Source of the DNA: a virus
Reading direction: 5' to 3' (one strand)
IMG/VR virus record: IMGVR_UViG_3300031616_000013
Location: 1 to 43,894 of that record
Length of the DNA: 43,894 nt
Under the pieces are notes generated by a model. The model ran no database searches and was not told where the DNA came from. It was given only the letters and a program-made list of their open reading frames with translations. Positions 9,967 to 36,704 of this stretch are shown here, piece by piece. A program made the translations under genes and the position numbers. How positions within the stretch are numbered: position 1 is the first letter of the stretch; each line of letters begins with the position of its first letter.

Positions 9967-9976
9967 CAACACACCG
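9967..9976 (-). promoter_or_regulatory. Late-junction element CGGTGTGTTG, copy 1
   Basis: CAACACACCG on the plus strand, so the word points left into the endolysin gene. Its TTG starts 53 bases before the ATG at 9916, and a GGGG sits about 11 bases before that ATG, so the transcript would have a short leader. The wider match TGACGGTGTGTTGCCGG is shared with copy 2. It lies in a 210-base gap that also contains the perfect palindrome ATGATG-TAT-CATCAT at 10011-10025. Confidence 0.65.
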
Positions 9977-10126
9977 TCATGGCTTTACGACGTCAGGTTG
10001 TTAGAGTAAGATGATGTATCATCATGAGCTAGGCGGCGGCATATGATAAAGGTCTTGTGGTACGTGCTGAAACATCGTCTTCGCCGCAGAATCCTAATAA
10101 TTTGGTGTTTTGGCTTACGACGGTGA

Positions 10127-11164
10127 TTAAAGTCTCCGGTATCCCGGAAAGTTTGAAGTCATGCTCCCGATAAGCAGGTTGGCACCCGCCCCGGGGTAGA
10201 TCAGAGGATTAACCAAGCAAAGGTCATGTACTGAATCGCTGCCGGCGCATTCAAAGATGCAATATGCTTGTGCGCCGCTGTCAGAATAGAATTGCGTTCC
10301 GGTGATGGTGATGTTCGAATTCTGACCCTGGAAAAGGAAGTGTCCGCGTGCTGGACCGGTTGCTATTCCTGATGCAGCGCAGTTGCCGGCATTGAACACT
10401 ACACTTGTGGCGTTGCGCATATATATGGTCCAGCAATTGGGTGCCGGTTCCAGAAACGCACCATGAAATTCGCATCCATCGAATAGATTTTCACCGATGT
10501 TGCCGCCCCCAGATGTGACTGGCTTGAAAATTGAAGTCACCCACCAATCCGGATTGGTGCTCAATGTCAGTGCAGGAGATATTGGGTCCCAATTCTGGAA
10601 GCGTGAACTTCTGAACTCGTTGTCGGAACCACCTATGATTGACAACGCTCCTGATTTGAACCATCCGGCTGAACCGCATCCTTCGAAGTAGTTTGCATTG
10701 CAGTCGTTGTTGCTTGGACCTGCTGCGAGAAGGATTGCGCATAGTGGGTTTATTGCGGGGCGAGCAGCCGCCTGAAATTGTTGGCCGATCGGAGTTATAC
10801 CGCTGATCTTGTTTCCGTTGCATGACGTCATGTCGAAAACTGGCGCAGCCACCGTTTGATTGCATCCGTAAAGCCATGCATTGTTACCGATGAACGTGCT
10901 GCGATTGATCCCAGTGAAATCGATCGCTCCGACCCGGTAATTTCCTCCATTAAGCTCGACCACACCAGCAGATGGGGAATATGTACGCATCGCGTCGATG
11001 GCGCCCTGAATTGCTGGCGTATCGTCAGAACCGCCAAGCGGCCCGAAATCAACCGGATTGTAATGAGCCGGAGGAGTCATCGTGGCGAAAGCCGGATTAA
11101 GAATGTATGGGCTTGCCAAAGTCGCTGCAGCGCCTACGATAAGCTTGCGACGAGATAGGATCAT
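10127..11164 (-). CDS. Beta-helix spike-like protein with Tat-type leader, 345 aa
   Basis: Residues 29-100 (PVDFGPLGGSDDTPAIQGAID...) follow the opening of pectate-lyase/GH28-like right-handed beta-helix proteins, with Gly/Asn-rich repeats after it, as in phage tailspikes that bind or cut surface polysaccharide. Oddly, it starts MILSRRKLIVGAAATLASPY, a twin-arginine signal pattern (SRRKLI plus hydrophobic stretch, then AFA). Virion spikes are normally assembled in the cytoplasm, so either the leader is not processed or the protein is exported. Between the fibre and the endolysin gene. No catalytic residues can be fixed by eye. Confidence 0.65.
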   Translation of the reverse strand: MILSRRKLIVGAAATLASPYILNPAFATMTPPAHYNPVDFGPLGGSDDTPAIQGAIDAMRTYSPSAGVVELNGGNYRVGAIDFTGINRSTFIGNNAWLYGCNQTVAAPVFDMTSCNGNKISGITPIGQQFQAAARPAINPLCAILLAAGPSNNDCNANYFEGCGSAGWFKSGALSIIGGSDNEFRSSRFQNWDPISPALTLSTNPDWWVTSIFKPVTSGGGNIGENLFDGCEFHGAFLEPAPNCWTIYMRNATSVVFNAGNCAASGIATGPARGHFLFQGQNSNITITGTQFYSDSGAQAYCIFECAGSDSVHDLCLVNPLIYPGAGANLLIGSMTSNFPGYRRL

Positions 11165-11177
11165 TTATTGTTCCAAG

Positions 11178-13616
11178 TCATAATTCTGAATTGATGAACA
11201 TTCTCGCACTAGTTGTCGCGGCATTTGGGGTAGCGATCGTCGCGCTACCGGCCGCGCCAAGGCCGGCCGTCGTTGTTGTTACATCAAGCACACCTCCCCA
11301 TTCTGTCGTTGTCGTTGTGAATGTTGACCAGACCACATAGCCGCTGATGGCTGTATTGTAATAAGACCAGTCGGAAGTTGCGCTCAATGTGACGGTTGGA
11401 GCGATACGCTTCATCGTCTTCCAGTTGATCGCCAAAACAGCTCGGCTCGTCGATGCAGCCTGAGCAATACCAACGCCAATCCCTCCGGCACTGGCCGCTG
11501 AAATGACTTCAAAATATCTTTGGCATTCTGCAGTCGATGCTGCGATTGACTTCAGCTCTATAGGGGGCGGACTTGAATTTATTCCAGTGGCAACTCCTGA
11601 TGTTACCCTAATATCTGCAGCAGTCATCAGGCACGACTGACCCGCCGTGAGAGCCGTATTGCAGTCGATTGTAACTTGATATCCCTGCGAAGCGCTGGCT
11701 GAAGCTGCGAATGTATATGCTTCCTGACACCAGACAGTAGTCGCGCACGAAGTGAGAGTCGTTGCCGCTAGATCTGCTGTGCATGTGGTAAAATTATCTG
11801 TAGCGCTGGCAAAGCAGGTAGACACCTTTGGTGCAACGGATGATCCGGTGTTTTGATTGTAGTAGAATTGGATAGTTATCGTGGCACCGGCCAGAGGAGC
11901 GGCCACAGAGCTTTCAATCCGTTGGGAGAATAGAGTGTCTGTATTACTGGTACCACCTACGCACCCAATATAATGAGCAGCCCCGTTATTGACCTGTGTT
12001 CCTTGGGAGCATGTAAACTGAGCGCCTGTTTGTACGACGCACCATCCATCTGCCGTCGAAACACATGGTTTCGCTAGAACTGAAGCTGTCGCAAGTCCTG
12101 ATGTTCCGCGTTGGAATATATCCATCGATGCATTGCGGAATTTATTGACGTTGCCGCCGGTCGGAACCGTAATTGCTCCGGTCTGACCATTCAAGGACGT
12201 GACCCCGGTATTTGCGACCGAGATATTTCCACCTGACGTGCTGACGGAAATTGCGGTGCCGGATACGATGCTTGGATTTCCGGTCTGTCCGTTGATGCTG
12301 GCGACACCGGATGTGGCTTGCGCACCAAGCGCCTGTGCACTCCAGTTCGAGATGCCATCTGAGACAAACAGGAAGCCACCGTTCGCGTTGTTTATGACCT
12401 GCGAACCAGTGCCGCCATTGATTGTATCGCTGCCATTACGGACGATGGTCAGCGTATTGGTGTTGGAAACAAAGCCCTTGAAATCCTGTATCAGGATGCG
12501 CGTGCCGGGATTTACAGCTGATGCTGCAACCATCGTCCATGTCCGCGGAGCTGTGAACGCAGCACTTGTTCCAACCGTACGATCAGTTGAGACCAGAGCA
12601 TAGTTGCTGTCTCCGTGAGAGGTAAGATTTTCGATGCCAAGACCACTTGGCCCACGCGCCAGAGCGGCTGTACCCTGCCCTGTTCCGCCGCTCGCTACTG
12701 CAACAGGCGTCGTCGCTGTCAGCGTGGAGAATGCGCCGGCAGCAGGTGTAGTTCCGCCGATGGCGGGAGGAGTAGCGGAGTTCTGGGTTGCGAAGGTGCC
12801 GAACGCGGTGCCGTTGATCTGGCCGGTCCCGGTGATGTTCATCGTGCCAGAGAACGTCTTGGTACCGCTGACGGTCTGAGTGGCTTCCAACGTTTCGACG
12901 GTTCCGGTCGTCGATGGGAATGTGAATTTGGTGCTGTCGGTGCCGGCGAGTTCCAGCGTATTGTCAATGGTCAGCGTCTTGCCTGAGACCACCGTGATGC
13001 CGGAGACCGCAAAGCAGTTGACGGCGGCCTCATAGAGCACAACGCCGGACGATGTCGCGCAGAGCGATCCAGCGATCGTGCCGACGGTCGAGAGCGATGC
13101 GGCGGTTAGGGTGCCCTGCAGCACTACGTTCTGCGTCCCGGTGGGCACGCCGAGCGCGACAGCGGCGCTCTTGTTGATCAGCGCGACGTCATAGGTCGAA
13201 CCCTGGCCGCCATAGACGCCGCCGTTGAGGGCGGTCGCACCGGACACTGCCTGCCCATTTCCGGTCGTCGCGATGGGTGCATTGAAGATCTCGAGACCGG
13301 TCGCGGGGGCCGTGCCACCGAGCCCGATTCCGGTAAACTGCGGGGTGTCGGTCGTGGCGCCGAACGAGAAGGTACCGCCGCCCGACATCGCGCCTGGCGC
13401 CGTCTGTCCATTGCCTGAGTTCAGCGTGATGACCGCTGACGTGAGCTTGGAGGATAGAGTCGCGAACGGGATGGCCTGACAAGGGCCGGGAGCGATGCCA
13501 AGCCGGCCGATGACCGTGTTGGCAGGGATGTCTGTCGGGAAAACGCAGGCGCCAAATGCAGCTCCCGGAAGCAGCAAAAACGCGGCGAAAAGGAGGGTTT
13601 TAAGGATCTGGCGCAT
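11178..13616 (-). CDS. Tail fibre-like protein with Sec signal, 812 aa
   Basis: Long Gly/Thr/Ser/Ala-rich protein with repeated fibre phrases (ASINGQTGNPSIVSGTAIS, TSLNGQTGAITVP) and a C-terminal block beginning FRNASMDIFQRGTSG, common in phage receptor-binding fibres; after it comes a jelly-roll-like carbohydrate-binding region. It would recognise the host surface. The N-terminus (MRQILKTLLFAAFLLLPGAA ending FGA-C) is a textbook signal peptide or lipoprotein-like leader, unusual for a virion protein. ATG at 13616 has no Shine-Dalgarno and sits 35 bases after the TTG of a CGGTGTGTTG element, which fits a leaderless message. Confidence 0.75.
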   Translation of the reverse strand: MRQILKTLLFAAFLLLPGAAFGACVFPTDIPANTVIGRLGIAPGPCQAIPFATLSSKLTSAVITLNSGNGQTAPGAMSGGGTFSFGATTDTPQFTGIGLGGTAPATGLEIFNAPIATTGNGQAVSGATALNGGVYGGQGSTYDVALINKSAAVALGVPTGTQNVVLQGTLTAASLSTVGTIAGSLCATSSGVVLYEAAVNCFAVSGITVVSGKTLTIDNTLELAGTDSTKFTFPSTTGTVETLEATQTVSGTKTFSGTMNITGTGQINGTAFGTFATQNSATPPAIGGTTPAAGAFSTLTATTPVAVASGGTGQGTAALARGPSGLGIENLTSHGDSNYALVSTDRTVGTSAAFTAPRTWTMVAASAVNPGTRILIQDFKGFVSNTNTLTIVRNGSDTINGGTGSQVINNANGGFLFVSDGISNWSAQALGAQATSGVASINGQTGNPSIVSGTAISVSTSGGNISVANTGVTSLNGQTGAITVPTGGNVNKFRNASMDIFQRGTSGLATASVLAKPCVSTADGWCVVQTGAQFTCSQGTQVNNGAAHYIGCVGGTSNTDTLFSQRIESSVAAPLAGATITIQFYYNQNTGSSVAPKVSTCFASATDNFTTCTADLAATTLTSCATTVWCQEAYTFAASASASQGYQVTIDCNTALTAGQSCLMTAADIRVTSGVATGINSSPPPIELKSIAASTAECQRYFEVISAASAGGIGVGIAQAASTSRAVLAINWKTMKRIAPTVTLSATSDWSYYNTAISGYVVWSTFTTTTTEWGGVLDVTTTTAGLGAAGSATIATPNAATTSARMFINSEL

Positions 13617-13648
13617 GCCCGGATTTGGGCTGGGCAGACCTTTACCGG

Positions 13649-13658
13649 CAACACACCG
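13649..13658 (-). promoter_or_regulatory. Late-junction element CGGTGTGTTG, copy 2
   Basis: Directly after the stop codon (TGA) of the Cys-rich gene and pointing left into the fibre gene. The TTG begins exactly 35 bases before the ATG at 13616. The -12 to -7 region reads CCAAAT, only a poor sigma70 -10. Confidence 0.7.
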
Positions 13659-14045
13659 TCAGGCTGGGTTAGTCACCAGCGGATGCCATCCGCCATTCTG
13701 TCGCTGGAATATCGTGATGGTATCGTAATAAATCGTTCTTGCGCCAGTGAGGAAGAAAAACACCCCCTGCGAGCGCACGTCAATGAAGGTATACTGAACC
13801 CAGAAATCCCCGTCGACTCCACCACTTGGCGCTGCCTGTCCCCAATGAACGGACGGCGGTGCTGGTGCTGGAGCTGGCGATGTGCCAGTCTGCGGCCACA
13901 CGTTCCAGAACCTGCACCAGTCATCCGGCGGCGGACTTGCCCAGATCGGCGCGCTCCCGGCCTGACTGGGCACTATGGCCTTGCAGTTGTTGCCAATATA
14001 GAACGAGCAGTTATTGCAGCTCTGGCCGGCTGGATTGGTTGCCAT
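13659..14045 (-). CDS. Cys-motif virion-region protein, 128 aa
   Basis: The N-terminus has QSCNNCSFYIGNNCKAI and, 22 residues later, DDWCRFW. This C-x2-C...C...WC spacing recalls high-potential iron-sulfur proteins and a small Cys motif seen in rhizobial phage proteins. A Pro/Ala linker follows, then an aromatic beta-rich domain (GDFWVQYTFIDVRSQGVFFF). Lies between the internal proteins and the fibre, so possibly a virion accessory. Metal or Fe-S binding is inference. Confidence 0.6.
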   Translation of the reverse strand: MATNPAGQSCNNCSFYIGNNCKAIVPSQAGSAPIWASPPPDDWCRFWNVWPQTGTSPAPAPAPPSVHWGQAAPSGGVDGDFWVQYTFIDVRSQGVFFFLTGARTIYYDTITIFQRQNGGWHPLVTNPA

Positions 14046-14054
14046 GGCGGTGTC

Positions 14055-17000
14055 CTATTGACCTGCCGCGATCTCCGGCGGCCGCTTGGGTCTTGGGGTG
14101 TTGGTCTTGCCCGAGAGATAGTCGAGCCGCTGCTGCAGGCCCTGCTGAATCAGTTTGGGGTCGCTGATCTGGATTGCCGTGGCGGCCTGCTGCCGCATTG
14201 CCGATATCGTGGCCCGCAACGTGTCCGCGCGGTTCGCCAGCGGGATGCTCTGCCAGCCCTGATGGTTGACCAGCGAGGTCAGAGCGCGCTGCACTAGCGG
14301 CCCGGCCGTGGCCTGGTAGCGGTCATATTGCTCCGGGGTCAGTTTCACCCCGCCGATGACATCGCGAGGCGCGGTAGGATGCAGGTTGACCCGCTCGAGC
14401 TCGAGCTTGACCGGATCATTGTTAATCGGTAGCGACCGGAGGATATTGTGATAGCCGGGATTCTCCAGCGGCTCGCCATAGAGAGGATCTCGCTTCGGCA
14501 GCAACGTCTCACGCAGAGACGGAATCCGGTTTTCCAGCCCGGCCACCATGCTCTTGGCGATCCGCATGTGCGGGTCTACGAAGCTCGCGGTCTGGCTCAG
14601 CAGCGAGGAGAATGGCAGCATCGAGGTGGCCTGATAGGAGGCAAAGCTGCCGCCCTTCTTCTCGTCCTCGATCGCATCCATGAAGTTTCGGAGCGACTGG
14701 AACCCCACCTCGTTACCGATGGTGTTAGCCGCGGCATTGGTTGTGGCCCAGATCGCATGGCTGATCGCCTCATCGAGGCCCTTGTCAGGAGCGGCCCAGT
14801 CGATGGCGAAGCGGTGTGCGATCGAGCCGATGGCAGCGCCGATCTGGGCGAGGTCGCCGGCGGGCCCAAACCGCTCGAACGACACCCAGCGGTCGCCAAT
14901 CTGGATCGAGTTGGCAGGCTTGCCCTGCAGCGCCCAGTCCTTGCGCTCGTTCTGGTCGGTAGGATAGTTCGAGGTCACCTTGCCCTGCATGTAGGCGTTG
15001 GTGAAATATGCCATGACGGACGATCCCACCGTCATGCGCGCGATGGCGAGATCCTGCTGCCGGCCGCCGTTCTCGCCCAGGATGTTCGCCCGCATGTCCT
15101 TGTCGAGCGCGGCGAATGGCGTGTATTCGTAGGTCGCCTTCATCAGGTTGATCGGAATGTGGGTGAACGGGATCACCCATTTGAGGCCTGGCACCTTCTT
15201 CACCAGCTGTTGAAAATTCTTGGCGTGCTCGCCAAGCTCCTGCATGAAGGTATCTTTATAGGCCTGATAGACGCTGTCCTTCAGCACCTTCTCCGTTGGA
15301 TTGAGCGCGTGATAGGCTCGGCGCTGCCAGAAATCCGAACCGGTCGGGTTCAGCCCCTCGGCCGCCGCCTTGTTATAGGCGGCCATTTCGAGGTTAGCGC
15401 GCTCGCCTAGCACCTTGAATGCAACGTGGATCGACGAGGCGATGTCGCCGGGTGATCCGAGGATGCGGCCCCAGATGCCGGGGATCGGCCGGGGTGGTTG
15501 CAGGTTCGGTTCGACCGCGCGCGATAGGGCTGTGGACGGCTTCTCGCCGGCAGCGACCGCCATATCGTGCAATTGCTTCTCGCTCTCCAGGGGCACGCGC
15601 ATGCCGGTCTTGATAGTTTGATATGCCGCCTTGATCGCGTCTGGGATAGCGGCGATCGTCCCATAATGGGCCGCCGCGGTCTCGCCAAAGAAGACCTTGT
15701 CGGTGCTGCCGACACCGGCCAGATCCTTCGCTTTGCCTATGATCGAGGCCAAGGGGGTCACGACGCCACGCTCCATTCCGGCATAGGTCGCATTTGCCAG
15801 CACGTATTTTGCATGCGTGAACGGGCCAGAGATCAGCCCCTGCGTCCACATCCAGTAGAACCAATGCGGCGCCTGCCCGCGCATCCCGGTCAGCACCTTG
15901 GCGGCCTGCTCGCGGTCGAGGCCATTCAGCCCGCGGGCAAGATCCTGAAGATCCTCCGGTGTCCGACCCTTGCTGTTAAGCAGGTCTGTAAGTGCAGCTT
16001 GACTGTCCTGCGCCCGCAATATCTCCTGCAGCGCATTACCGGCGCGGCCCCATTCGGCCCGAAGCGCCACGGTATGCGACAGGGTTGCCTCCAGCGCATA
16101 GTCCCGCTTCATAATTGCTGCCTGCAGCGCGGCAAGATTCTTTTGAGCCTGCACAACTTTAGGGTCTATCGGACCCGTCTCTGGCACCTCGCCTAAATGC
16201 GCCTGCGCATCAGCTATCGTCTTTATTGTTTTGTTGATGCCAAAGCTAACATCGCCTTCACCGGATGGCTTGAATACACCACCTGTTGAATACCTGAGAC
16301 GTTCACCCGTTTCAGGATCAACCCTGATGAGATTCCCGGAAGGAGTGGCCTTGACGTTTGGATCGTCGATCAGCTTGGCGACGCTATCAGGTAACTCTCT
16401 CAGATTTGCAGTCTTCCAATCTTCTGTAGCCGGTGCTCCTTTTTGTCCCGCCTTCAAATCGATATTGCCATCGGCGCGCACCGCCTCGGCAGCACTCTGC
16501 ACGTCATCGCCGAGCTTCTTCAAGAGCGTGGTGACGGTCCTGATCTCATCGTCGGTGCGGAACGTCGTGCGCAGTTTGCCACCGTCGATCGCGGCCGAAT
16601 CCAGCCCGGCCGCCTCCGCGACCTTGGCGATCTGCTCGGGCGGAACATTGCCGGCGCGTGCCTCTGGGAAATTGTTGTTCTGCGACGCCATGTCCTTGAC
16701 CAGCGTCTTGAAATCGTCCGGCGTCTCGGTCTTGTCGACATAGCGGTTGAAGCGCTCGGCCCATGCATCGATGGGCTCGCCGGCCGGCGTCATCGTGATC
16801 TTGTCGCCTTGGTTGGATGCGGCCGGGATCGCGCGCTGTGCCGCTGCGGCGGGGGTTTCAGCGGGCGGCGGCGGAACATCAGGTCCGATGATGCCGGACT
16901 GCTTGGCCTCGATGATATTCTGGATCGCGGGCGGGACTGCGGGTGGCGCCTCGCCTTCTGGAATCGGTGCGGCTTCATGCTCGGCGATCGCTTGCGCGGT

Positions 17001-17417
17001 CGTAGCTTCTGCCGCCGGATGCGCCACGCCGGCCTCGAACTCCTGCATATGCGGCGTGAGGGCCTCGATCGCGGCGCGCGGCATCTTGAACTTGGCGGCA
17101 GTGCCGATGGTCCCGAGCGCGGCGTTAAGCCCGAACTCGATCTGTTCGTCCGACGTCAATCCCTGCTCATAGGCATTGCCCGGCGTCTTGACAAAATCGA
17201 TCATGCCCTGCGCAAAGTCGGCCGGGAATTTCTTGACTCCCTCCCATAGCTTGGAGCGCCCCTGCTCTGAGCCCAGCATCTCGATGCCAAGCGGGATTGT
17301 CTGCATCAGGCCGCCTTGCGGGCCAGACGGTGCAGTAGCCTCTGCCGGCGTGTCCCACGGGTCTACGGCGGGAGCGATCGGTGCGGCTACGGCTGGTTCA
17401 TCCCAAGGGTCGGCCAT
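14055..17417 (-). CDS. Large internal/ejection-type virion protein, 1120 aa
   Basis: Begins with MADPWDEP and a Pro/Ala-rich region (DPWDTPAEA), then long helical stretches and a hydrophobic region around 690-900 (WVIPFTHIPINLMKATYEYTP, MAYFTNAYMQGK). Large helical proteins of 1000 or more residues at this place in podoviruses are ejected with the DNA (T7 gp15/gp16 analogues). The C-terminal region (NFMDAIEDEKKGGSFASYQA...) is of a type seen in alphaproteobacterial phages, related to large polyvalent-protein-associated domains. No transglycosylase motif seen. Overlaps the next upstream gene by one base. Confidence 0.7.
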   Translation of the reverse strand: MADPWDEPAVAAPIAPAVDPWDTPAEATAPSGPQGGLMQTIPLGIEMLGSEQGRSKLWEGVKKFPADFAQGMIDFVKTPGNAYEQGLTSDEQIEFGLNAALGTIGTAAKFKMPRAAIEALTPHMQEFEAGVAHPAAEATTAQAIAEHEAAPIPEGEAPPAVPPAIQNIIEAKQSGIIGPDVPPPPAETPAAAAQRAIPAASNQGDKITMTPAGEPIDAWAERFNRYVDKTETPDDFKTLVKDMASQNNNFPEARAGNVPPEQIAKVAEAAGLDSAAIDGGKLRTTFRTDDEIRTVTTLLKKLGDDVQSAAEAVRADGNIDLKAGQKGAPATEDWKTANLRELPDSVAKLIDDPNVKATPSGNLIRVDPETGERLRYSTGGVFKPSGEGDVSFGINKTIKTIADAQAHLGEVPETGPIDPKVVQAQKNLAALQAAIMKRDYALEATLSHTVALRAEWGRAGNALQEILRAQDSQAALTDLLNSKGRTPEDLQDLARGLNGLDREQAAKVLTGMRGQAPHWFYWMWTQGLISGPFTHAKYVLANATYAGMERGVVTPLASIIGKAKDLAGVGSTDKVFFGETAAAHYGTIAAIPDAIKAAYQTIKTGMRVPLESEKQLHDMAVAAGEKPSTALSRAVEPNLQPPRPIPGIWGRILGSPGDIASSIHVAFKVLGERANLEMAAYNKAAAEGLNPTGSDFWQRRAYHALNPTEKVLKDSVYQAYKDTFMQELGEHAKNFQQLVKKVPGLKWVIPFTHIPINLMKATYEYTPFAALDKDMRANILGENGGRQQDLAIARMTVGSSVMAYFTNAYMQGKVTSNYPTDQNERKDWALQGKPANSIQIGDRWVSFERFGPAGDLAQIGAAIGSIAHRFAIDWAAPDKGLDEAISHAIWATTNAAANTIGNEVGFQSLRNFMDAIEDEKKGGSFASYQATSMLPFSSLLSQTASFVDPHMRIAKSMVAGLENRIPSLRETLLPKRDPLYGEPLENPGYHNILRSLPINNDPVKLELERVNLHPTAPRDVIGGVKLTPEQYDRYQATAGPLVQRALTSLVNHQGWQSIPLANRADTLRATISAMRQQAATAIQISDPKLIQQGLQQRLDYLSGKTNTPRPKRPPEIAAGQ

Positions 17418-24706: not shown

Positions 24707-24740
24707 GGCGGCAAAGGTGCGGTGGGAACCCTATCCCCGG

Positions 24741-24750
24741 CAACACACCG
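24741..24750 (-). promoter_or_regulatory. Late-junction element CGGTGTGTTG, copy 3
   Basis: Starts one base after the TAG stop of the glycosyltransferase-like gene and points into the adaptor gene. TTG lies 37 bases before the ATG. Flank GCGGTGTGTTGCCGGGG matches copies 1 and 2 downstream of the core. Confidence 0.7.
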
Positions 24751-28165: not shown

Positions 28166-28177
28166 GTCTGTCGCTCC

Positions 28178-29098
28178 TTACGGGGTCACGTCGCCGGCGG
28201 CCGAGGTGTCGGCGCAGAGAACCTGCAACAGGCGGCCGGGTTCGAGCCGGGTCGAGCCGGAGGTCATGAGGCTGGCGAGCTGCCAGGGCAGACCAGACAG
28301 ATCGCGGCGCCGTTCGAGATCGTTCTCGACATCCTTCCAGACACCGAGGTAGGCGCCTGATTTGACCAGTGCGATGTTCTGGCGAACGCTCGAGGTCGAG
28401 ATCATGCGCTCCGAGTAGATGATGTTCCAGCCCATGAAGCGGGTGACCTTGCCCTCCTGCAATACTGGCTTGTCTGAGAACTCGGTCGAGACCACCTGCA
28501 CCTGGTTGAGCAGATCGGACTCGCCCTGACTGTTGGTGATCCAGGTCATTTCCTCGTCGTCGACGTCAACCTGAGCCTTGCGCATGATGCGCTTGGCCTC
28601 GATCATCTTCGCCACCGTCAGCCCGGAGGCCGCGGTCGAGGCAAAGGTCGAGGCGATCGACCAGTTCGTGGTCGAGAAGGATTCGGTGGTGGTGCCGACG
28701 CCGGTGGAGTCGCCGATGGTGGCGGTCGCGAAGGCCGCGGCGATGATGCGGTCATCCCATTCGCGGGCGACGGCGGCCATGGCGACATCGGAGTAGCGGC
28801 TGGTGGGATCCGTCAGCAGGCGCAGCTTGTCGAAGGTATCGATGAGCTGATAGGCCTCCTTGTCGACCGGGAGAACCCAGCGACGGGTGAAGTCGGTGTT
28901 CTGCGGCTGGTTCGGCGTATAGCGGCCCGCCGGGGCACGCATCTGGATCGAGCCGATATAATCGATCGGGCTCGCCTGCTTGCCGACATGGTAGCCTTCC
29001 ATGACGCGGCCGCGAAGCTTCGACTGCTTCTGCTGCAGCTTCAGCATCAGGATGGTCGAGAAGGTCTCAACGGCAAGTTTCGGCAGGTTCTCTGACAT
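28178..29098 (-). CDS. Major capsid protein, 306 aa
   Basis: Order scaffold - two small genes - this gene, and size, fit the HK97-fold major capsid protein. Conserved features: VAMAAVAREWDDRIIAAAFA in the P/A-domain region, a Thr/Ser-rich loop (GVGTTTESFSTTNWS), and MTWITNSQGESDLLNQVQVV near 180-205. It starts after a 190-base leader with GC-rich repeats and element copy 4, the longest late leader in the window, suggesting separate high expression. Confidence 0.82.
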   Translation of the reverse strand: MSENLPKLAVETFSTILMLKLQQKQSKLRGRVMEGYHVGKQASPIDYIGSIQMRAPAGRYTPNQPQNTDFTRRWVLPVDKEAYQLIDTFDKLRLLTDPTSRYSDVAMAAVAREWDDRIIAAAFATATIGDSTGVGTTTESFSTTNWSIASTFASTAASGLTVAKMIEAKRIMRKAQVDVDDEEMTWITNSQGESDLLNQVQVVSTEFSDKPVLQEGKVTRFMGWNIIYSERMISTSSVRQNIALVKSGAYLGVWKDVENDLERRRDLSGLPWQLASLMTSGSTRLEPGRLLQVLCADTSAAGDVTP

Positions 29099-29240: not shown

Positions 29241-29288
29241 AACTCTCAGGTCGCGGGCGGGAAGATGCGCCGGGAGATCTGTTTCTTT

Positions 29289-29298
29289 CAACACACCG
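29289..29298 (-). promoter_or_regulatory. Late-junction element CGGTGTGTTG, copy 4
   Basis: Follows the TGA stop of the DUF6496-like gene directly and points into the capsid leader. TTG lies 193 bases before the capsid ATG. Flank TGACGGTGTGTTGAAAG; the CCGG downstream extension is missing. Confidence 0.65.
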
Positions 29299-29472
29299 TC
29301 ATTTCTTCTTCATCGCCTTGGCGCCTTCCTTGTAGCGCCCGCCATGCTTCTGCTCGTTGCGCTTCTCGCTCAGCATGATGGCGACCGCCTGCTTCTGGCT
29401 GGTCACCTTGTCGCCGCTGGAAGACTTCAGCTTGCCGGTCTTCCACTTGTTCATCACCTGACTGGACGGCAT
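29299..29472 (-). CDS. DUF6496-like small basic protein, 57 aa
   Basis: Short frame from ATG 29472. MPSSQVMNKWKTGKLKSSSG then VTSQKQAVAIMLSEKRNEQK is the DUF6496 pattern (short proteins with a QA[VI]AI-x-LSE helix and Lys-rich tail). They are common in phages and bacteria and have no established function. Lies one base after the Cys-rich gene and upstream of the capsid. Confidence 0.7.
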   Translation of the reverse strand: MPSSQVMNKWKTGKLKSSSGDKVTSQKQAVAIMLSEKRNEQKHGGRYKEGAKAMKKK

Positions 29473-29473
29473 G

Positions 29474-29794
29474 TCAGCCTCCCGTGAGATCGACCATCTG
29501 ATGCTTGATCAGCTTGCGGGCTTTCAGGCGGTTCTTCATGGTGATGGGGCCGCAGCCGGAATCCGCCGTCTTGTAGGGGTGCTTGCAGATCTCGACCGTC
29601 GAGATCACGCAGCACTCCGGCGTGCAGCCGCTGCAGCACGACGTCGCAGAGATGCCGGCGAACTCGCCGTCCTTGACCGGAGCATCCTTGGACTGCGGCT
29701 CGGCCTTGGCGCGCACCACGCGCTTTTTCTTGTTCGGCCCGCGGCGCTTCGGCGCCGGCGCAATGATGGTGTTCTCGGTGAGAGATTCGTTCAT
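29474..29794 (-). CDS. Cys-rich basic protein, 106 aa
   Basis: N-terminal 40 residues are Lys/Arg/Pro-rich (APKRRGPNKKKRVVRAKAEP). Then TSCCSGCTPECCVISTVEIC and SGCGP give eight cysteines in about 35 residues, likely a multi-zinc or disulfide cluster. Overlaps the scaffold gene by four bases. Family not recognised. Confidence 0.6.
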   Translation of the reverse strand: MNESLTENTIIAPAPKRRGPNKKKRVVRAKAEPQSKDAPVKDGEFAGISATSCCSGCTPECCVISTVEICKHPYKTADSGCGPITMKNRLKARKLIKHQMVDLTGG

Positions 29795-30633
29795 GCGGCG
29801 CTCCCGTAAAGCAATTGCATCAGATTATCCATCTCGGCCTTCTCCTTCGGCATGCCCTTCAGATACCGCGCGGTCCATTCCGGGTCCGCCTGCAGCTCGG
29901 TGATACGCGCCTTGGCGCCGTTCATCGTCACCGGGTTGCCGCCATGACCTGACTCGACGAATGTATCCTCGGTGGTGCCAGAGCCGATCTTGCGCCAGAA
30001 TTCCATGGTGGCCTTGTAGCCGATGGCGTCCTCCATCGAGGCAATGACCTTGGCCGCCTCGTCGTCGCTGCCGACGGCGCGGCGCGCGCCCTGCATCGCG
30101 GTCAGGCGATTGAATTCAGCGTTGTTGCCCCACTCGCGCGCCAGATCAGTGCGCTGGCTCTGCCGGGTCGCCGCCCTGGCATCGGCCTCGGCCTTGTCAG
30201 CCGCATCCATGAAGCCAACGACCTCCTTGACGACGCCGGGCGCGGCATCCTTGGGCGTGCCGGCCTTGAGGAGCGCGTTGCGCATGCGGTCGGTGAAGGC
30301 CTGATCGAGCTCCGAGCCGTCGGCGAACTTGACGCCGGTGAAATCGTATTCCTTGGCTTCCTTCGGTGCGCCGAGGCGCTGGCGGACGGTAGCCCATCCG
30401 GCCTCGTCGGTCGCGTCCTTCGGCAGCCGCAACAGTTGATCGGCCGGGACGCCCAGGAACTGCTGTGCGCTGCGATGGGCCTTGGCGGCCTCGATCGCGC
30501 CGATGACCGGGTCCTTGTCCCAGCCCTTGTTCTGCAGCCAGCCGATGGTGTCGGCGTCGGCCTTACCCTCATACCAGGGTGCGGCCGGTGGCGTGACAAC
30601 CGGCGGGACGGTGGTAACGGTCGTGTCAGACAT
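29791..30633 (-). CDS. Scaffolding protein, 280 aa
   Basis: Highly charged and helical, Pro-rich at the start (TTVPPVVTPPAAPWYEG), with GWLQNKGWDKDPVIGAIEAA near 30 and a Lys-rich C-terminal helix. Phage scaffolds with a W[YL]..K....D..........KG[WF] opening lie directly before the capsid gene, as here. It would guide procapsid assembly and leave or be cut. Confidence comes from composition, motif and order. Confidence 0.75.
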   Translation of the reverse strand: MSDTTVTTVPPVVTPPAAPWYEGKADADTIGWLQNKGWDKDPVIGAIEAAKAHRSAQQFLGVPADQLLRLPKDATDEAGWATVRQRLGAPKEAKEYDFTGVKFADGSELDQAFTDRMRNALLKAGTPKDAAPGVVKEVVGFMDAADKAEADARAATRQSQRTDLAREWGNNAEFNRLTAMQGARRAVGSDDEAAKVIASMEDAIGYKATMEFWRKIGSGTTEDTFVESGHGGNPVTMNGAKARITELQADPEWTARYLKGMPKEKAEMDNLMQLLYGSAA

Positions 30634-30874
30634 TCAATTCTCCTGCGATATTGCGACCGATATAGAGCGCGTAGAGCTGGTCATCGGTCAGGTTGCTCAT
30701 GTTCACGATGCGGAGGAAGGCGCGGCGCTTGCCTTCGTCGAGTTCGCCGTCGGCGTCCTTCCGGAAGCAGCAGAACTTCATCATATCGTTCATCACGATC
30801 TGGCCGGACTCGGACGAAAACACGATCCGGTAGGCGCGCTGTAGCTCATCGAGCTTGTCTGTCGCATCACTCAT
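30626..30874 (-). CDS. Bbp19-like protein, 82 aa
   Basis: A helical protein with YRIVFSSESGQIVMNDMMKF, then EGKRRAFLRIVNM-type helix (here DEGKRRAFLRIVNM), the pattern of Bbp19 family proteins found between portal and scaffold genes. Function of the family is unknown. Overlaps the scaffold start by eight bases. Confidence 0.7.
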   Translation of the reverse strand: MSDATDKLDELQRAYRIVFSSESGQIVMNDMMKFCCFRKDADGELDEGKRRAFLRIVNMSNLTDDQLYALYIGRNIAGELNV

Positions 30875-31055
30875 GTCTAGGGACCGATTGGTCTATTGAT
30901 GCCAAAGTGCAGTCGCGGCAGGCAAAAATACCATGGATAACAAGCGCCGAGTCTGCTCCTTGGATACCAGAATACCCCGATGTGCCACCGGAATATTCGT
31001 GGTGCGAATCTTCCATCATGGCAATCGATTGGACCCCAACCAATCCAAAATCCAT
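30867..31055 (-). CDS. Possible small protein between portal and Bbp19 genes, 62 aa
   Basis: Frame from ATG 31055 to a stop that overlaps the Bbp19 start by eight bases (ATGAGTGA). The product has EYSGGTSGYSGIQG and a CRDC pair. Codon third positions are less GC-rich than in neighbours and the stretch 30875-31132 is full of short inverted repeats such as TGGAATTCCA. It may be a recent insertion or non-coding. Weakly supported. Confidence 0.35.
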   Translation of the reverse strand: MDFGLVGVQSIAMMEDSHHEYSGGTSGYSGIQGADSALVIHGIFACRDCTLASIDQSVPRHE

Positions 31056-31132
31056 TTGGAATTCCAGAGATGTCTGGCCTGCGCGGTCCCTGAAAAACCA
31101 GCATCATACGGCTCCGCGCTCTTTCGACAAAC

Positions 31133-32869
31133 TCATGCCGCTGGCCTCTGCATGGGACCGCCGATGCCCTGGGTGCCAAGGCCGGGCTGATTCTTGTTCA
31201 CCACGCTCTGCGCCTTCATCATCGCGGCCTGGGCCGGCATGGCCTGGATCTGGGCCTGCTGCTGGGCGGCCCTGGCGCGGTTCTGGCGCTTGACCGCGAT
31301 CTTGCGGTCGTCAGCCATCCAGTGCTCGGGCACATTCTGGATCGCGGCGATCTCCGGCAGCGCGACGTCGAAATCGAATGGATCGAGATAGCTCTGGTCC
31401 TGCGTGATGTTGGCTATTTCCTTGGCCGTCTCCACGGTGCGGATGAAGCCGGCGGCCTCCTGGGCGCGCTGGCTGAGCGCGAGCGGCGAGGTGTAGACCA
31501 CCTGATATTCGCCCTCGGCCTCCCTGAGCAGCGCCGGCATCGGCGGCAACACCCCGATCGCGTTGAGCACGTCGAGCTCGCGCTCGATGATCGGGCCCAG
31601 ATATTCGGTCTCCTGCCGGCCCAGGGTCGGCGCCACCAGGATGCCCTTCTCGTTGACCAGCTCGATGACCTGGGTCGCGGTCATGTTCGGATGCTCGGAC
31701 AACACCTTGAACAGCGTCACCAGGAACATGTCGTCGATGATGCCGCGCTCCTCGGCCATCATCTCCTTGGCCACCTGGATCTGACCGGTGGGCAGAATCT
31801 TGACCAGCTCGCGACCTTGCGAATCCACGCCGCCCTTGTTCAGCGCGCCGGGCCGCAGGTTGAAATCGATGATGCCATCATCCGGGGTCAGCAGCACCGG
31901 ATCGGCGGCGCGGTGGCCCTGCTTCAAAAACATGGTTTTCTGCGCGTTCAGGGTCTTCAGCGCCGGCAGCACCATCTGCGCCGGACCGCGGCCGTACCAC
32001 TCGCGCGGGGCCTGGTCGTAGCGCGAGGGTGCATAGGGGAAGGTGCGATAGCCCTTCTCATCCTGCATCAGGCATTGCCCCTCGATGCAGACATAATGCG
32101 AGGAGAACGGCAGTCCCCTGGCGTCGAGCCGCGAACGGTCGTAATCCCTGCGCGGCTTGACGCAGTGCAGGAAGTTGAACGGCATCTGGCTGTTCTTGTC
32201 GAGCGCCGCCAGCACCTGCACCGGGAGCCGGTCGCGACCCCATTTCTGCATGGCCTGGTGGGCGTTCAGCCGGAACCAGCGGATCATGCGATCGACGATT
32301 CCCTGGTGATTCTCGCCGAAGAAGGTCTCACCCAGCGGCACGCTCTTGTAGCGCACGCCCTTGAAGCCGTGATAATCGCGGCCGTCGAAGGCGTCGATGA
32401 ACATGGTGGCGTTGCCGAAGGCGCCGAGCGAGCGGAAATTGGCGTTGTTCTGGCCGCGGAAGTTCGCCAGCGGATTGCGGCGGTACTTGAACAGGAGCCG
32501 CGTGATAGTGTCGAAGTAGAGCCGGACGTCCCGGTTCTTCATGACATATTCGTTCGAGGCCTCCAGCGCGTGCCACTTCGAATTGGCCGGCGTCAGCAGC
32601 GAATCGGCAATCGCCGCGAAGCGGTGCAGCGCCAGCATCCCGGTCGCATCGACCTGCTGGTAGGTCTTCTTCTGGCCCGGCCAGTTGTAGGATCCATAGA
32701 AAAAGGTATTGCGATGCTCGGGCCAGACCAGCTGCGAGGTCTCCTCCCACTGGCCCGCGTGCACGTTGCGCCAGATCGTGTACTCGGTGAACTCGCGCAT
32801 GATCTCGCCGACGGTGTCCTGCTCCTCGGAGGAGATGATGCGGAATTTTAAGTTCACGGGCGCGTTCAT
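31133..32869 (-). CDS. Portal, T7-type head-tail connector, 578 aa
   Basis: ATG at 32869 overlaps the previous stop; the 13-residue longer frame is rejected. Typical head-tail connector phrases: YGSYNWPGQKK, LLTPANSKWHALEA near 75, then YGRGPAQMVLPALKTLNAQK and GHRAADPVLLTPDDG in the 300-340 region, and a Gln/Ala-rich C-terminus (RARAAQQQAQIQAMPAQAAM). The dodecameric portal is the DNA gate of the head and marks a podovirus. The long antisense frames over it are shadows. Confidence 0.88.
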   Translation of the reverse strand: MNAPVNLKFRIISSEEQDTVGEIMREFTEYTIWRNVHAGQWEETSQLVWPEHRNTFFYGSYNWPGQKKTYQQVDATGMLALHRFAAIADSLLTPANSKWHALEASNEYVMKNRDVRLYFDTITRLLFKYRRNPLANFRGQNNANFRSLGAFGNATMFIDAFDGRDYHGFKGVRYKSVPLGETFFGENHQGIVDRMIRWFRLNAHQAMQKWGRDRLPVQVLAALDKNSQMPFNFLHCVKPRRDYDRSRLDARGLPFSSHYVCIEGQCLMQDEKGYRTFPYAPSRYDQAPREWYGRGPAQMVLPALKTLNAQKTMFLKQGHRAADPVLLTPDDGIIDFNLRPGALNKGGVDSQGRELVKILPTGQIQVAKEMMAEERGIIDDMFLVTLFKVLSEHPNMTATQVIELVNEKGILVAPTLGRQETEYLGPIIERELDVLNAIGVLPPMPALLREAEGEYQVVYTSPLALSQRAQEAAGFIRTVETAKEIANITQDQSYLDPFDFDVALPEIAAIQNVPEHWMADDRKIAVKRQNRARAAQQQAQIQAMPAQAAMMKAQSVVNKNQPGLGTQGIGGPMQRPAA

Positions 32870-33336
32870 CAGTGCAGCGTCAGCCTCCGTGCGTCGGGGT
32901 CCCGGCAATCCATGGTCGGATCAAGGCGCTGGTCGGCCTTGACCCAGCGATGCACGCAGGCGAAAAGCTCGAGGCGGTCGGCATCTGATAGTTTCAGCCG
33001 ATCGGCCAGCTTGCGGAAGATGTCCTGCATCTGCGTGCTGCTCGAGAATATCACGGCGTTCTTCAGCCGTGCGCCGTCCGGCATGATCAGGTCGGCGACG
33101 ACGTGGCCGCGCTTGTTGATCTTCGGGTTCGAGCAATAGAACGGCGGCTCGATATGCCAGTCGCCTAAGATGGCGGCGAGCAGGAACGGCAGCGCGTCCT
33201 CATAGGAATCAGCCAGCAGCGAGAGCAGCGCGCATTTAAGCTGGATCGAGACCAGGTTGGCCAGCGCCAGAGCGCGGCCCTGCCAGCTCTCCCGCAATTC
33301 CTCGCCTGACATCTTGACGTTGATCTGGCTATCCAC
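32869..33336 (-). CDS. Hypothetical head-region protein, 155 aa
   Basis: Placed directly before the portal with a one-base overlap (TGATG). Helical N-terminus (ALALANLVSIQLKCALLSLLAD), then PPFYCSNPKINKRGHVVADL and QDIFRKLADRLKLSDADRLEL. Such small proteins between terminase and portal in alphaproteobacterial podophages are uncharacterised. Confidence 0.65.
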   Translation of the reverse strand: MDSQINVKMSGEELRESWQGRALALANLVSIQLKCALLSLLADSYEDALPFLLAAILGDWHIEPPFYCSNPKINKRGHVVADLIMPDGARLKNAVIFSSSTQMQDIFRKLADRLKLSDADRLELFACVHRWVKADQRLDPTMDCRDPDARRLTLH

Positions 33337-33523
33337 TGAAGCCCCCGCCGAGCAGCATCTGCGCCGCCGGCGACTGCATCGCGCTCATGCCGAGCCGCTT
33401 CTTGCGCTTTTCTTCCTCGGTCTGGTCGGCGACCTGCTGCGGCAGCTGGTTGCCGAGCCCGAGATCCATCGCGGCCATGCCGGTCAGGTTCTTGCCGCCG
33501 AAATAGCTATTCGGTGCCGCCAT
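33329..33523 (-). CDS. Hypothetical head-region protein, 64 aa
   Basis: Starts at 33523, overlapping the upstream gene by 17 bases and the downstream gene by eight. Charged helix QTEEEKRKKRLG flanked by Gly/Met/Ala-rich ends, a small-adaptor-like composition. Not recognised. Confidence 0.6.
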   Translation of the reverse strand: MAAPNSYFGGKNLTGMAAMDLGLGNQLPQQVADQTEEEKRKKRLGMSAMQSPAAQMLLGGGFSG

Positions 33524-33806
33524 GATTTTCCGGTCCTGGTTTGCCGAGAGCGGCGAATGCGTCCTCCAGCCTGGTAATACGGTCAGAGAGCGCCTTGTGC
33601 TCGGCGGCGTTGGTATCTTCCGCGTCGGCGGCCGCTGCCGCCATCTCGGCCGAGGTCGGCAGGCCGAGCTCGACGCGCATCGCGTCGGCCGCCTCCTCGC
33701 CCCTGGTCTGCGCGATGTAGTGTAGGTGGTTCACGACCTGCTGCTGCTCCGGAAGCGCGCCGTGGCCGTCCTCGATCTCCATTCCGGTCACGGGATGCTT
33801 GTCCAT
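33507..33806 (-). CDS. Coiled-coil head-region protein, 99 aa
   Basis: ATG 33806 with GGAGCCCG before it; the longer frame from 33902 lacks a site. C-terminal heptads (EHKALSDRITRLEDAFAALG) predict a coiled coil. Probably an assembly accessory between terminase and portal genes. An 88-base leader separates it from element copy 5. Confidence 0.65.
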   Translation of the reverse strand: MDKHPVTGMEIEDGHGALPEQQQVVNHLHYIAQTRGEEAADAMRVELGLPTSAEMAAAAADAEDTNAAEHKALSDRITRLEDAFAALGKPGPENHGGTE

Positions 33807-33894
33807 ATCGGGCTCCAAAAATGGGGCATTGGCGCCCCTTCGAGTCTGTCTGGGAGGATGTTGCCGCAAGATGGGGAGGAACCGCATGAAGCGG

Positions 33895-33904
33895 CAACAC
33901 ACCG
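33895..33904 (-). promoter_or_regulatory. Late-junction element CGGTGTGTTG, copy 5
   Basis: Ten bases beyond the terminase stop, pointing into the 99-aa gene; TTG is 91 bases before that ATG. Flank GAACGGTGTGTTGCCGC retains the CCG extension. Confidence 0.65.
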
Positions 33905-33914
33905 TTCTTCGCCG

Positions 33915-35357
33915 TCAGGCCAGCACGTCGAAGTCGATGCCCTGGGCCATCGGCGGGCCGTCCGCGGCGCTGCGGCGCTTGCTGCCAAGCGTCACCGCGC
34001 GCCCAAAGCGCTTCATCATGATTCCGATGCGGCAGGCCGACATCAGGTCGTCCTTGATCTTCACGATCTGGCCGTCCTTGCGGTGATAGAACCGCCGCTC
34101 CTCGAGATAGTCCGACAGGTGCGCCGCGATCTTCAGCCGGCCGCTCTTCTCGCGCTCGTCCATCTCCATGATCCCGGCCTCGGTCGAGACCCCGCCGTCC
34201 GGCCAGGTCGCATGCTCCGGCAGCATCACCAGGTCCTGCTTCTTGTACATCGCCGCCAGCGGCTCACCCGAGCCCTTCTCGCGGTCGCCGCCATCCTTCG
34301 GATAGGCTACCGGAACCTCGGCGCCGATCTGCTTCATGGCGTGCGCGTGCTGGATCGGCAGCGCGTCCGCCACCCGGTAGGTGTGGTGGACATGGATCAC
34401 GTCATTGTCCCGGTCCCACAGCAGCAGCACCGCCGCGAAGGGATGGCCGATGCCGAAATCGATGCCCCACAGCTTGACCCAATGCGGCGGGATCCGCTCG
34501 ATCGCGTCCTCCACGATCGATGACTCCGAGGCCATGAAGATCCGCCCCGAGCCCAGCATCGGCACGCCGCGGGCCCGCGCCTCACGCTCATGCACCAGAT
34601 AGCCGTCGATGATCTTGGCGCGCTCGCCGACCGGGATATGCAGCGCATCCTCGATCGTCATCGCAACATAGCCGCGGTCCGGCGAGGGCTCGTCGAGGAA
34701 GCGGATCACCACGCTGGAGCGGCCCTTCAGCGGCGTGAAGGTCATGAAACACATCCCGCCCGTCGCTACCGTACGGGTCAGGAACTCGGCATAGACGTCC
34801 TCCGGCGGCTCCTCGTCGCACCAGCCCCAGTCAATGCTCTCGCCCTGAAACTTGGTTCGCCCCTGCTCATACGACTTGAAGCGGGCCACACTCACCCCGC
34901 CCGAGACATGCCGGACCTGGATCGTGTCATAGGCGTCCGTCACCCCGCGCGCCAGACTCGGCTTGTCGACAAACAGGTCCTTCGGGATCATCCCAGTCCC
35001 GAACAGCTCGTCCACCCCCGGCTCGCCGCACAGCTTCTTCTGCTGCACATCCCGCACCACCAGCGAGGTCTCACCCGCGATCCAGCCCTTGTTCGGCCGG
35101 TCAAAGCGCCGCCCCTTCCAGTTGTCAGGATAGTTCCCGGTCATATGGCAGGCCGCCTCATAGGCCCCCACATGCGTCTTGCCGTTCTGATTGCCAGCGA
35201 TCAGCAGCCGCTCACGCTTCCGCGCCCCCATGTCCAGGAACTGCTTCTGCTTCGGATACGGCTGAAAATCATAAAACTGCTGATAGGTCCGCCGGTAGTC
35301 CAGCGCCTGCAGCCCGGAGAGGATCTGCTTGAGCTCGCCAAGCGGAAGATCGGTCAC
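33915..35357 (-). CDS. terL: Terminase large subunit, 480 aa
   Basis: The packaging motor. Walker A GNQNGKT at 55-61, Walker B with IDWGWCDEE (Asp181-Glu182), coupling motif FMTFTPL near 205-210, and an RNase H-like nuclease opening at LWGIDFGIGHPFAAV (Asp300). The GNQ-x-GKT form is typical of P22/T7-relative terminases of podoviruses. The start overlaps the small-subunit gene by four bases. It docks on the portal during DNA packaging. Confidence 0.92.
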   Translation of the reverse strand: MTDLPLGELKQILSGLQALDYRRTYQQFYDFQPYPKQKQFLDMGARKRERLLIAGNQNGKTHVGAYEAACHMTGNYPDNWKGRRFDRPNKGWIAGETSLVVRDVQQKKLCGEPGVDELFGTGMIPKDLFVDKPSLARGVTDAYDTIQVRHVSGGVSVARFKSYEQGRTKFQGESIDWGWCDEEPPEDVYAEFLTRTVATGGMCFMTFTPLKGRSSVVIRFLDEPSPDRGYVAMTIEDALHIPVGERAKIIDGYLVHEREARARGVPMLGSGRIFMASESSIVEDAIERIPPHWVKLWGIDFGIGHPFAAVLLLWDRDNDVIHVHHTYRVADALPIQHAHAMKQIGAEVPVAYPKDGGDREKGSGEPLAAMYKKQDLVMLPEHATWPDGGVSTEAGIMEMDEREKSGRLKIAAHLSDYLEERRFYHRKDGQIVKIKDDLMSACRIGIMMKRFGRAVTLGSKRRSAADGPPMAQGIDFDVLA

Positions 35358-35905
35358 TCGTTGCTCATGTCAACGAATTCGCCATCAATGATCGGCGTCG
35401 CCGCGGCATGACCCAGAAGTTTCTGCAACGGAACTCCCGTTTTGTCAGCCAACCTCTTGATCTCCGCCAGAATTTCCTTGCCACTCTGATCTGTGATCGT
35501 CTGGTTGATATTCACATTCTGGTCGACCGTGAATCGGTTCAGCCCCGCCAACAACGCCGCAGCCTTGAACTGGTCCCGATGCAAGTCATTCCTAACAATC
35601 TTCTTGATCGTCGCAATCCCAAGCATCGCACCAGAGCGCACCTCCTTGTCCGCACACTCCCGAATCGCCGCCAAAACCCCATCATGGTGAAAGTTCCGGT
35701 GTGCCGATACCCGCAGCGAACCATGATTGTTGCCGCCATACCCCGCCGCCTTCGCAATCTGCCAGTCCTTCGCCAGCGGAAACATCACCGCCGCCAGCGC
35801 AAACCTCCGCTGCGGAGCCGACAATGCCTTCATCGCCGGGCCAAGCCCATCCTCATCCGGGTCTGGAACTACAGCCGTGCCTTGGGTAATATTATTTCGT
35901 GCCAT
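35354..35905 (-). CDS. terS: Terminase small subunit, 183 aa
   Basis: ATG at 35905 (MARNNITQG) is chosen over an upstream frame that crosses element copy 6. An HTH-like DNA-binding region spans about 45-75 (WQIAKAAGYGGNNHGSLRVS, as in phage TerS), followed by helices and SGKEILAEIKRLADKTG. TerS selects the packaging site; the packaging sequence could lie in the adjoining 392-base gap or in terS itself. The ATG lacks a clear Shine-Dalgarno and is 36 bases after a CGGTGTGTTG TTG. Confidence 0.8.
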   Translation of the reverse strand: MARNNITQGTAVVPDPDEDGLGPAMKALSAPQRRFALAAVMFPLAKDWQIAKAAGYGGNNHGSLRVSAHRNFHHDGVLAAIRECADKEVRSGAMLGIATIKKIVRNDLHRDQFKAAALLAGLNRFTVDQNVNINQTITDQSGKEILAEIKRLADKTGVPLQKLLGHAAATPIIDGEFVDMSNE

Positions 35906-35938
35906 GCAATAACAGGTTATCCAACAACCCAACCCAAA

Positions 35939-35948
35939 CAACACACCG
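35939..35948 (-). promoter_or_regulatory. Late-junction element CGGTGTGTTG, copy 6
   Basis: Points left into terS. TTG starts 36 bases before the ATG at 35905. Flank TTAGCGGTGTGTTGTTTGGG. This is the head of the late operon, so a promoter reading is natural here. Confidence 0.7.
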
Positions 35949-36112
35949 CTAACAGATGGAACCAAAAGCAGATGCCTGCCAAAATCTCAGGGAGGCGCCG
36001 CGAAAAAGAGGAGGGAGGTCGAAAATCGCCCGAGCGCCAAAGTTCCGGGGTACCCCCACCCCCACCCCGGTCTTTTTGCTAAGCCATTGATATTGTTCAC
36101 AACGATTGTAGC

Positions 36113-36151
36113 GCCTGCGTTTCGCCTGCGTTTCGCCTGCGTTTCGCCTGG
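36113..36151 (+). repeat. Tandem 11-bp repeats GCCTGCGTTTC, three copies plus part
   Basis: Perfect copies at 36113-36123, 36124-36134 and 36135-36145, then GCCTGG to 36151. Short direct repeats next to an AT-rich tract beside the terminase gene recall iterons or a TerS-binding packaging site. Confidence 0.8.
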
Positions 36152-36297
36152 CATCAGCCATCCGAGAGCGTTGACTGACGTAATTGGCAATGTATCAACA
36201 ATATCAACTGGTTAGATCAGTCGTGACGTTAATGGGTGATTAAGGTGATCCAGATTATGGAACATTTACAGTTAACTCATGCGGCTGAGGGACGAGT

Positions 36298-36480
36298 TCA
36301 CTCCCTCGCCTTCTTCAAAGCCTGTTCAGCGAGGTGTGATGTGCTGACGAGACCGATGAACAGCAGTTCCCATCGTTCGGCCTCGGATAGTTCCATGAAC
36401 TCGATCATGGCGATCTCCTGATCCGTAGAGCGATTGATGCGGAAGTGTTCGAGGAGTTGGCGAGCGGTGATTTGCGGCAT
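36298..36480 (-). CDS. Hypothetical protein, 60 aa
   Basis: ATG 36480 has a strong GAGGAGG eight bases ahead, so the longer frame from 36603 is not used. Acidic helical protein (TDQEIAMIEFMELSEAERWE). Lone leftward gene upstream of the terminase operon; a TTGACA at 36603-36598 (minus strand) may be its -35. Function unknown. Confidence 0.7.
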   Translation of the reverse strand: MPQITARQLLEHFRINRSTDQEIAMIEFMELSEAERWELLFIGLVSTSHLAEQALKKARE

Positions 36481-36668
36481 GTGCCTCCTCGCGCTTGCGC
36501 TCGTCAGCGGTCCTCGCTCGCAAGTCTCGCTGTGGAAGGATTTGGGGTGCGCGCGCGATGCGGGACGCGCGATGAATTTGCGGGGGATTTTGGCTGCTGT
36601 CAAATGGGTTGATATTATCCAATGATTACAATGGCGATTGTTTGTGTACTAATGATTTGTGTTGCGCG

Positions 36669-36704
36669 CGGTGTGTTGGTTGGGCAAATCAGCGACTTTA
36701 TGAT
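36669..36704 (+). promoter_or_regulatory. Element copy 7 overlapping a sigma70-like promoter
   Basis: CGGTGTGTTG at 36669-36678, here on the plus strand. Its final TTG begins a -35-like TTGGTT (36676-36681), a 17-base spacer follows, then TATGAT at 36699-36704. The start codon GTG at 36711 would be about +1, so the message would be leaderless. The only copy with a good -10. Confidence 0.65.

Follow-up and report, generated by a model that had tools for sequence, protein, structure and literature searches.

A probable two-part promoter family for structural and lysis genes in a clade of uncultured podoviruses

Why should a single ten-base word, CGGTGTGTTG, recur in seven exact copies between the genes of one phage? 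The window studied here, a whole stretch of 43,894 bases, comes from a podovirus with T7-like tail parts, as identified by a PHROGs scan that recovered a portal/adaptor (phrog_332), a major head protein (phrog_3437), tail proteins (phrog_394 and phrog_376), and an internal virion protein (phrog_6651). We consider it likely that the repeats are the upstream half of a two-part promoter family that, in a clade of uncultured podoviruses, serves structural and lysis genes and is read most plausibly by an XRE-like HTH protein of the phage. To the repeats described by a first-pass annotation of this DNA, our analysis adds a -10 box, conservation across the clade, a genome-specific spelling, and a candidate reader.

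Other features of the genome are recorded here in their own right. The window ends (1-126 and 43769-43894) are identical over 126 bases, and the contig is probably a closed circle (a k-1 assembly overlap) rather than a virion with terminal repeats of that kind. Three near-identical copies of TTACGTAACGGTTGCGTAACGGTTACG at 40173-40333 are iteron-like and possibly mark a replication origin or a repressor site. A Queuine tRNA-ribosyltransferase-like gene (4734-5465, plus strand; phrog_1279, E 9.5e-70) recalls those of phages that modify DNA or tRNA with deazaguanines.

Results

Repeats in the window

The seven copies (six minus-strand, one plus-strand) are all intergenic and each is oriented into the following gene, as the first-pass annotation had reported for the same positions and strands. 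It had put the chance expectation below one 10-mer match; a third-order Markov model gives 0.07 copies. With one mismatch allowed, 10 occurrences were found compared with 2.7 in shuffled sequences (0 of 100 shuffles reached 10), and a chance origin of the repeats is excluded. The conserved element extends up to three bases beyond the annotated word, and these bases are CCG in four of the seven copies. The copies, with the extended repeat given as box 1 and offsets counted in its register, are as follows:

Copy 1, minus strand: box 1 GTGTGTTGCCG, 9964..9974; -10-like AATTGT, 9941-9946, 17 bp from the TTG hexamer; phage lysozyme gene 9302-9916 (PF00959), predicted leader about 18 nt.
Copy 2, minus strand: box 1 GTGTGTTGCCG, 13646..13656; poor -10 CCAAAT, 13623-13628; 812-aa gene, ATG 13616 at offset 40.
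Copy 3, minus strand: box 1 GTGTGTTGCCG, 24738..24748; -10 CACCTT, 24714-24719, 18 bp from the TTG hexamer; tail gene (phrog_394), ATG 24706 at offset 42; relatives have a copy at the same junction.
Copy 4, minus strand: box 1 GTGTGTTGAAA, 29286..29296; -10 CATCTT, 29262-29267, 18 bp from the TTG hexamer; major capsid gene 28178-29098, predicted leader about 158 nt; relatives have a copy at the same junction.
Copy 5, minus strand: box 1 GTGTGTTGCCG, 33892..33902; -10 CATCTT, 33868-33873, 18 bp from the TTG hexamer; directly after terL and ahead of a 99-aa gene (33507-33806), predicted leader about 56 nt; relatives also have this terL-portal junction copy.
Copy 6, minus strand: box 1 GTGTGTTGTTT, 35936..35946; -10 TAACCT, 35914-35919, 16 bp from the TTG hexamer; presumed terS gene, ATG 35905 at offset 41; terS copies occur in relatives too.
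Copy 7, plus strand, divergent from copy 6: box 1 GTGTGTTGGTT, 36671..36681; -10 TATGAT, 36699..36704, 17 bp from TTGGTT; HTH gene, GTG 36711 at offset 40.

Several details of the earlier description were reproduced in full: the 35, 37, 36, and 35 bases between TTG and start codon, the leaders of about 18, 158, and 56 nt predicted for copies 1, 4, and 5, and the TTGGTT-17-TATGAT arrangement of copy 7. No Rfam family matches the motif that would mark it as an RNA element. A mini leader ORF (GTG TGT TGC, read as M C C) was considered and rejected: relatives change the codon (GTG CGT) and the frames of several copies stop at once, the conserved properties being instead the distance to the -10 and to the real start.

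A second box downstream

Does conservation end with box 1? In an alignment of 130 distinct late-strand sites registered on box 1, taken from related genomes and so not fully independent, conservation reaches no further than one or two bases upstream, while downstream there is one conserved region, with C at 28, A at 29 (63%), T at 32-33 (63% at 33), and C at 34-35. The pattern.A...T begins at offset 27, 28, or 29 in 16, 42, and 18% of the sites, respectively, and at other offsets in about 4%; thus, 76% of the sites have it 16-18 bp from the TTG hexamer, against about 12% expected. The resulting -10 consensus is gCAnnTTCC, in which -11 and -7 are fixed by the alignment. Taking the hexamer as -12 to -7 places TTG at -35 to -33, box 1 at -40 to -30, and the predicted start near offset 40. 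The layout is that of the Sigma70 class (boxes 16-18 bp apart, A at -11, T at -7), but the Sigma70 consensus TTGACA/TATAAT is absent, TTG alone being kept of the -35. Two observations count against a promoter, namely C rather than T at -12 (in 65% of the sites) and the poor -10 of copy 2. The first-pass annotation overlooked the second box because it does not resemble TATAAT; its statement that copies other than the seventh lack a good -10 holds for copy 2 but not for copies 1, 3, 4, 5, and 6, which fit the family -10.

Predicted leaderless starts

Where would transcription begin relative to the genes? ATG codons at the head of open frames of 50 aa or more occur at offsets 39 to 43 in 7, 17, 16, 5, and 3 sites, compared with about one per offset elsewhere, so that 48 sites place the ATG of a long ORF at the predicted transcription start. 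A Shine-Dalgarno-like sequence precedes only 1 of 51 predicted leaderless starts, compared with 41 of 70 internal late genes when these are scored leniently, that is, for a Shine-Dalgarno at any start within the first 25 codons; under the same leniency, the leaderless set rises to 4 of 51. The two marks of a leaderless promoter—a start codon at the transcription start and no Shine-Dalgarno—are therefore present at the level of sequence, and the leaderless reading is well supported. For the remaining sites, most of them ahead of the capsid gene or at the terL-portal junction, the predicted leaders range from tens of bases to some 200 nt. Three features, namely a constant distance to a -10-like box, a narrow ATG peak, and the missing Shine-Dalgarno, fit the first-pass proposal of an extended -35 recognized with the help of an activator or an unusual sigma, with transcription starting at the start codon, and the sequences lend that proposal support.

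Conservation and spelling among relatives

How far does the family extend? A portal search returned 80 uncultured contigs, the nearest 79% identical. Where the window has GTGTGTTG, dozens of these relatives carry GTGCGTTG, with 129 copies along late transcription and 10 opposed, at the same junctions: terS, terL-portal, capsid, tail, fibre, and lysis. Enrichment at junctions in relatives, on which the first-pass proposal had staked itself, was thereby found. Whole genomes typically have 5-10 copies each, mostly on one strand, and a word count made without any prior assumption ranks GTGCGTTG with two further bases among the ten-base words most over-represented in ten genomes. A variant, GTACGTTG, in one genome (G003) keeps the downstream spacing to the -10 and the ATG. 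In another (G005), two head-to-head copies make up a perfect palindrome, CAACGCACTAGTGCGTTG (L220, about 17104-17121), with an ATG at offset 40 on both sides, each from its own box, an arrangement that fits a directional element. We apply the label "late" by inference from the kinds of gene that follow the sites (terS, the portal junction, capsid, tail, fibre, and lysozyme).

Asymmetric, directional, intergenic repeats in a phage with HTH regulators could also be operator-like sites that silence late genes in a lysogen, as mycobacteriophage stoperators do. However, the fixed register with a -10-like box and start codons is unexpected for roadblock sites, no integrase was recognized among the scanned proteins, and the first portal scan of bacterial genomes gave no prophage; we regard operator-like sites as very improbable.

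The motif is not general among phages. Scanning the collection with the 14-mer CGGTGTGTTGCCGG gave 118 mostly unrelated loci. The best XRE match among them (E 0.047) was too weak for a confident homologue, and neither a -10 nor a start-codon register was seen in the loci that were read. The cultivated relatives MW202898, BUCT708, and BcepC6B have neither motif clusters nor an XRE protein, and open-access PMC literature, searched by sequence and by phage leaderless late promoters, contained nothing on this family. Some relatives have repeats of other kinds. In the distant cultivated or named phages L266 (Stenotrophomonas phage BUCT708) and L265 (MW202898), TGGTCTTTCCT is repeated 4 times and TCCGTCTCCGT and CCCGGACCCGT 5 times each; each of these words may mark a separate promoter family. 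In G021 (L261-L263), a relative that lacks the late motif, CCGAGTCCGC occurs 13 times, compared with 0.13 expected.

Is box 1 spelled alike in all genomes? Positions 8 and 9, after GTGYGTTG, are not: identity of pairs within a genome is 0.73, compared with 0.36 after shuffling among genomes (p<0.0005 each). The spelling there is TTG in G018 (8 of 9 sites), CTG in G011, CGG in G019, AGC or AGT in G004, and CCG in the window; position 3 is also genome-specific, largely since the window alone is all T. This pattern suggests that the box has changed in concert with a reader encoded by the phage, and different hosts could produce it as well. The same promoters might be read by a host sigma factor alone, either housekeeping or alternative (e.g., RpoH, whose -10 is also CAT-rich), the spelling reflecting different hosts. 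Such a reader would account for a TTG exactly at -35 and 16-18 bp from the -10, and a motif-free relative (G013) has TTGACG-17-TAAATC before terS, so a plain sigma promoter serves there. The hosts themselves leave room for it: a first portal search found none, and a second returned two metagenome-bin contigs with no motif and no credible host. Against it, positions 8-9, which for sigma are part of TTGACA/TTGAAA, are the ones that vary by genome, whereas the upstream GTGYG is fixed, and motif-free relatives lack such an extended box. We judge a host sigma acting alone fairly unlikely, and return to a phage-encoded reader.

Candidate readers of box 1

Which phage protein might read the box? No RNA polymerase gene and no sigma factor was found among the window proteins scanned. 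Three small proteins came into question:

38177-38836, minus strand: XRE-like HTH protein, candidate reader of box 1.
36711..37070, plus strand: small HTH protein of 119 aa, its gene predicted to be driven by copy 7.
29477-29794, minus strand: Cys-rich small protein, encoded just upstream of the capsid promoter.

The first belongs to an XRE-like HTH family with a basic C-terminus, obtained by clustering the ORFs of 19 genomes with iterative search; a profile built from the other genomes only matched the window member at E 1.1e-5. The usual place of the gene is on the late strand, 1-2.6 kb upstream from the terS promoter, and the protein is found in 13 of 14 motif genomes—including G003 with its variant box—and in 0 of 5 relatives without the motif. 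In loci that extend about 5 kb or more upstream of the portal, bipartite sites accompany the protein wherever it occurs (all 19 loci) and are missing from 11 of the 14 loci that lack it. The three exceptions are L140 and L160, which end near the expected place of the gene, and L138, which is G005, with sites and no detected XRE. L280, nested in the clade by the portal tree, has neither motif nor XRE in its 28.5-kb, possibly incomplete contig, and uses ordinary starts. Because motif and protein mark essentially one clade in that tree, their link rests on few independent events, and in a Mantel test of XRE-motif covariation one control protein scored as high as the XRE-like protein. The predicted model has an HTH fold, with XRE chains at Z about 3; the best PDB sequence match is an HTH protein (E 0.012), no Pfam family matches, and Foldseek gave no match to PDB below E 0.001. 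The model thus points to an HTH protein, and its assignment to XRE is weak. The family is fast-evolving and, by its distribution, the best candidate for the reader of box 1.

Another phage protein in that role seems distinctly improbable to us. The small HTH protein has copy 7 before its own gene, and its close homologues in L150 and L152 likewise have a motif copy 40-41 bases before the start, yet it was detected in only 5 of 21 relatives (E<=0.01). All 14 motif genomes and none of the 5 others encode the Cys-rich protein; its N-terminus is basic, it has a conserved Cys4-like motif (C..C...CvIS...CgHP.K), it matches no Pfam family, and it is possibly zinc-binding. Its gene, however, is a neighbour of the capsid gene within the late operon and persists in L280, and because of this retention in a motif-free genome it is a poorer candidate than the XRE-like protein.

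Discussion

How might these parts work together? We propose that the upstream half (GTGYGTTG with its genome-specific extension, at -40 to -30) and the degenerate downstream half 16-18 bp away would direct host RNA polymerase to start about 7 nt after the -10, late in infection. In roughly 40% of sites this start would be the start codon itself, giving leaderless mRNAs, and from the capsid and portal-junction copies the longer leaders predicted above. With less confidence, we suggest that a phage protein binds box 1, replacing or joining sigma region 4. The most likely binder is the XRE-like HTH protein, whose gene lies a short way upstream of the late genes; once bound, it would make the weak -10 usable and switch on all the served genes together. 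That the family is a new substitute or partner for sigma region 4, binding -40 to -30, enabling a degenerate -10, and firing leaderless structural mRNAs, with a protein-box pair particular to each phage, is a bolder proposal, possible in our view but on balance doubtful.

If leaderless starts do operate at most tail and terS promoters, they would amount to systematic leaderless translation by a phage, and if each phage has its own protein-box pair, related phages would have partly insulated late promoters. An uncultured phage clade thereby gains a testable transcription programme and a candidate regulator. Genome-specific boxes beside a fast-changing DNA-binding protein offer material for studies of promoter-specificity drift and a potential source of independent promoter parts.

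How does the family compare with known systems? In T4 middle promoters, a MotA box works with AsiA in sigma appropriation, the activator assuming the role of sigma region 4 (PMC2988021, PMC7403470); that box has its centre at -30 and an excellent -10 at a distance of 12 +/- 1 bp (PMC2988021). As there, a phage box with many copies in the genome would take the place of the -35 and be paired with a -10 for host RNA polymerase, and by co-occurrence the XRE-like protein is a candidate for a T4-like activator contacting sigma region 4. Here, however, the box spans -40 to -30 with TTG at -35, lies 16-18 bp from a degenerate rather than near-perfect -10, has no sequence resemblance to the MotA box, and leads to start codons at the predicted transcription start. 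We do not file the family under T4 middle promoters, because box, position, spacing, and -10 all differ. With T7-like phages it shares related virion proteins and a repeated phage-specific promoter, here a predicted one, before structural genes. T7-type promoters are one block reaching past +1, whereas here there are two boxes and an unconserved spacer, and a PHROGs scan of all window proteins above 300 aa revealed no phage-encoded single-subunit polymerase. The stoperators of mycobacteriophage L5 are likewise short and asymmetric, fall in intergenic gaps, and follow the direction of transcription; unlike them, the repeats described here keep a fixed register with a -10 and a start codon and by sequence resemble start sites, not roadblocks. 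Finally, leaderless transcripts have been noted as frequent in phages (PMC5312081), and the predicted 5' ends at start codons are of that kind; what sets them apart here is that they are bound to one conserved promoter family across a clade.
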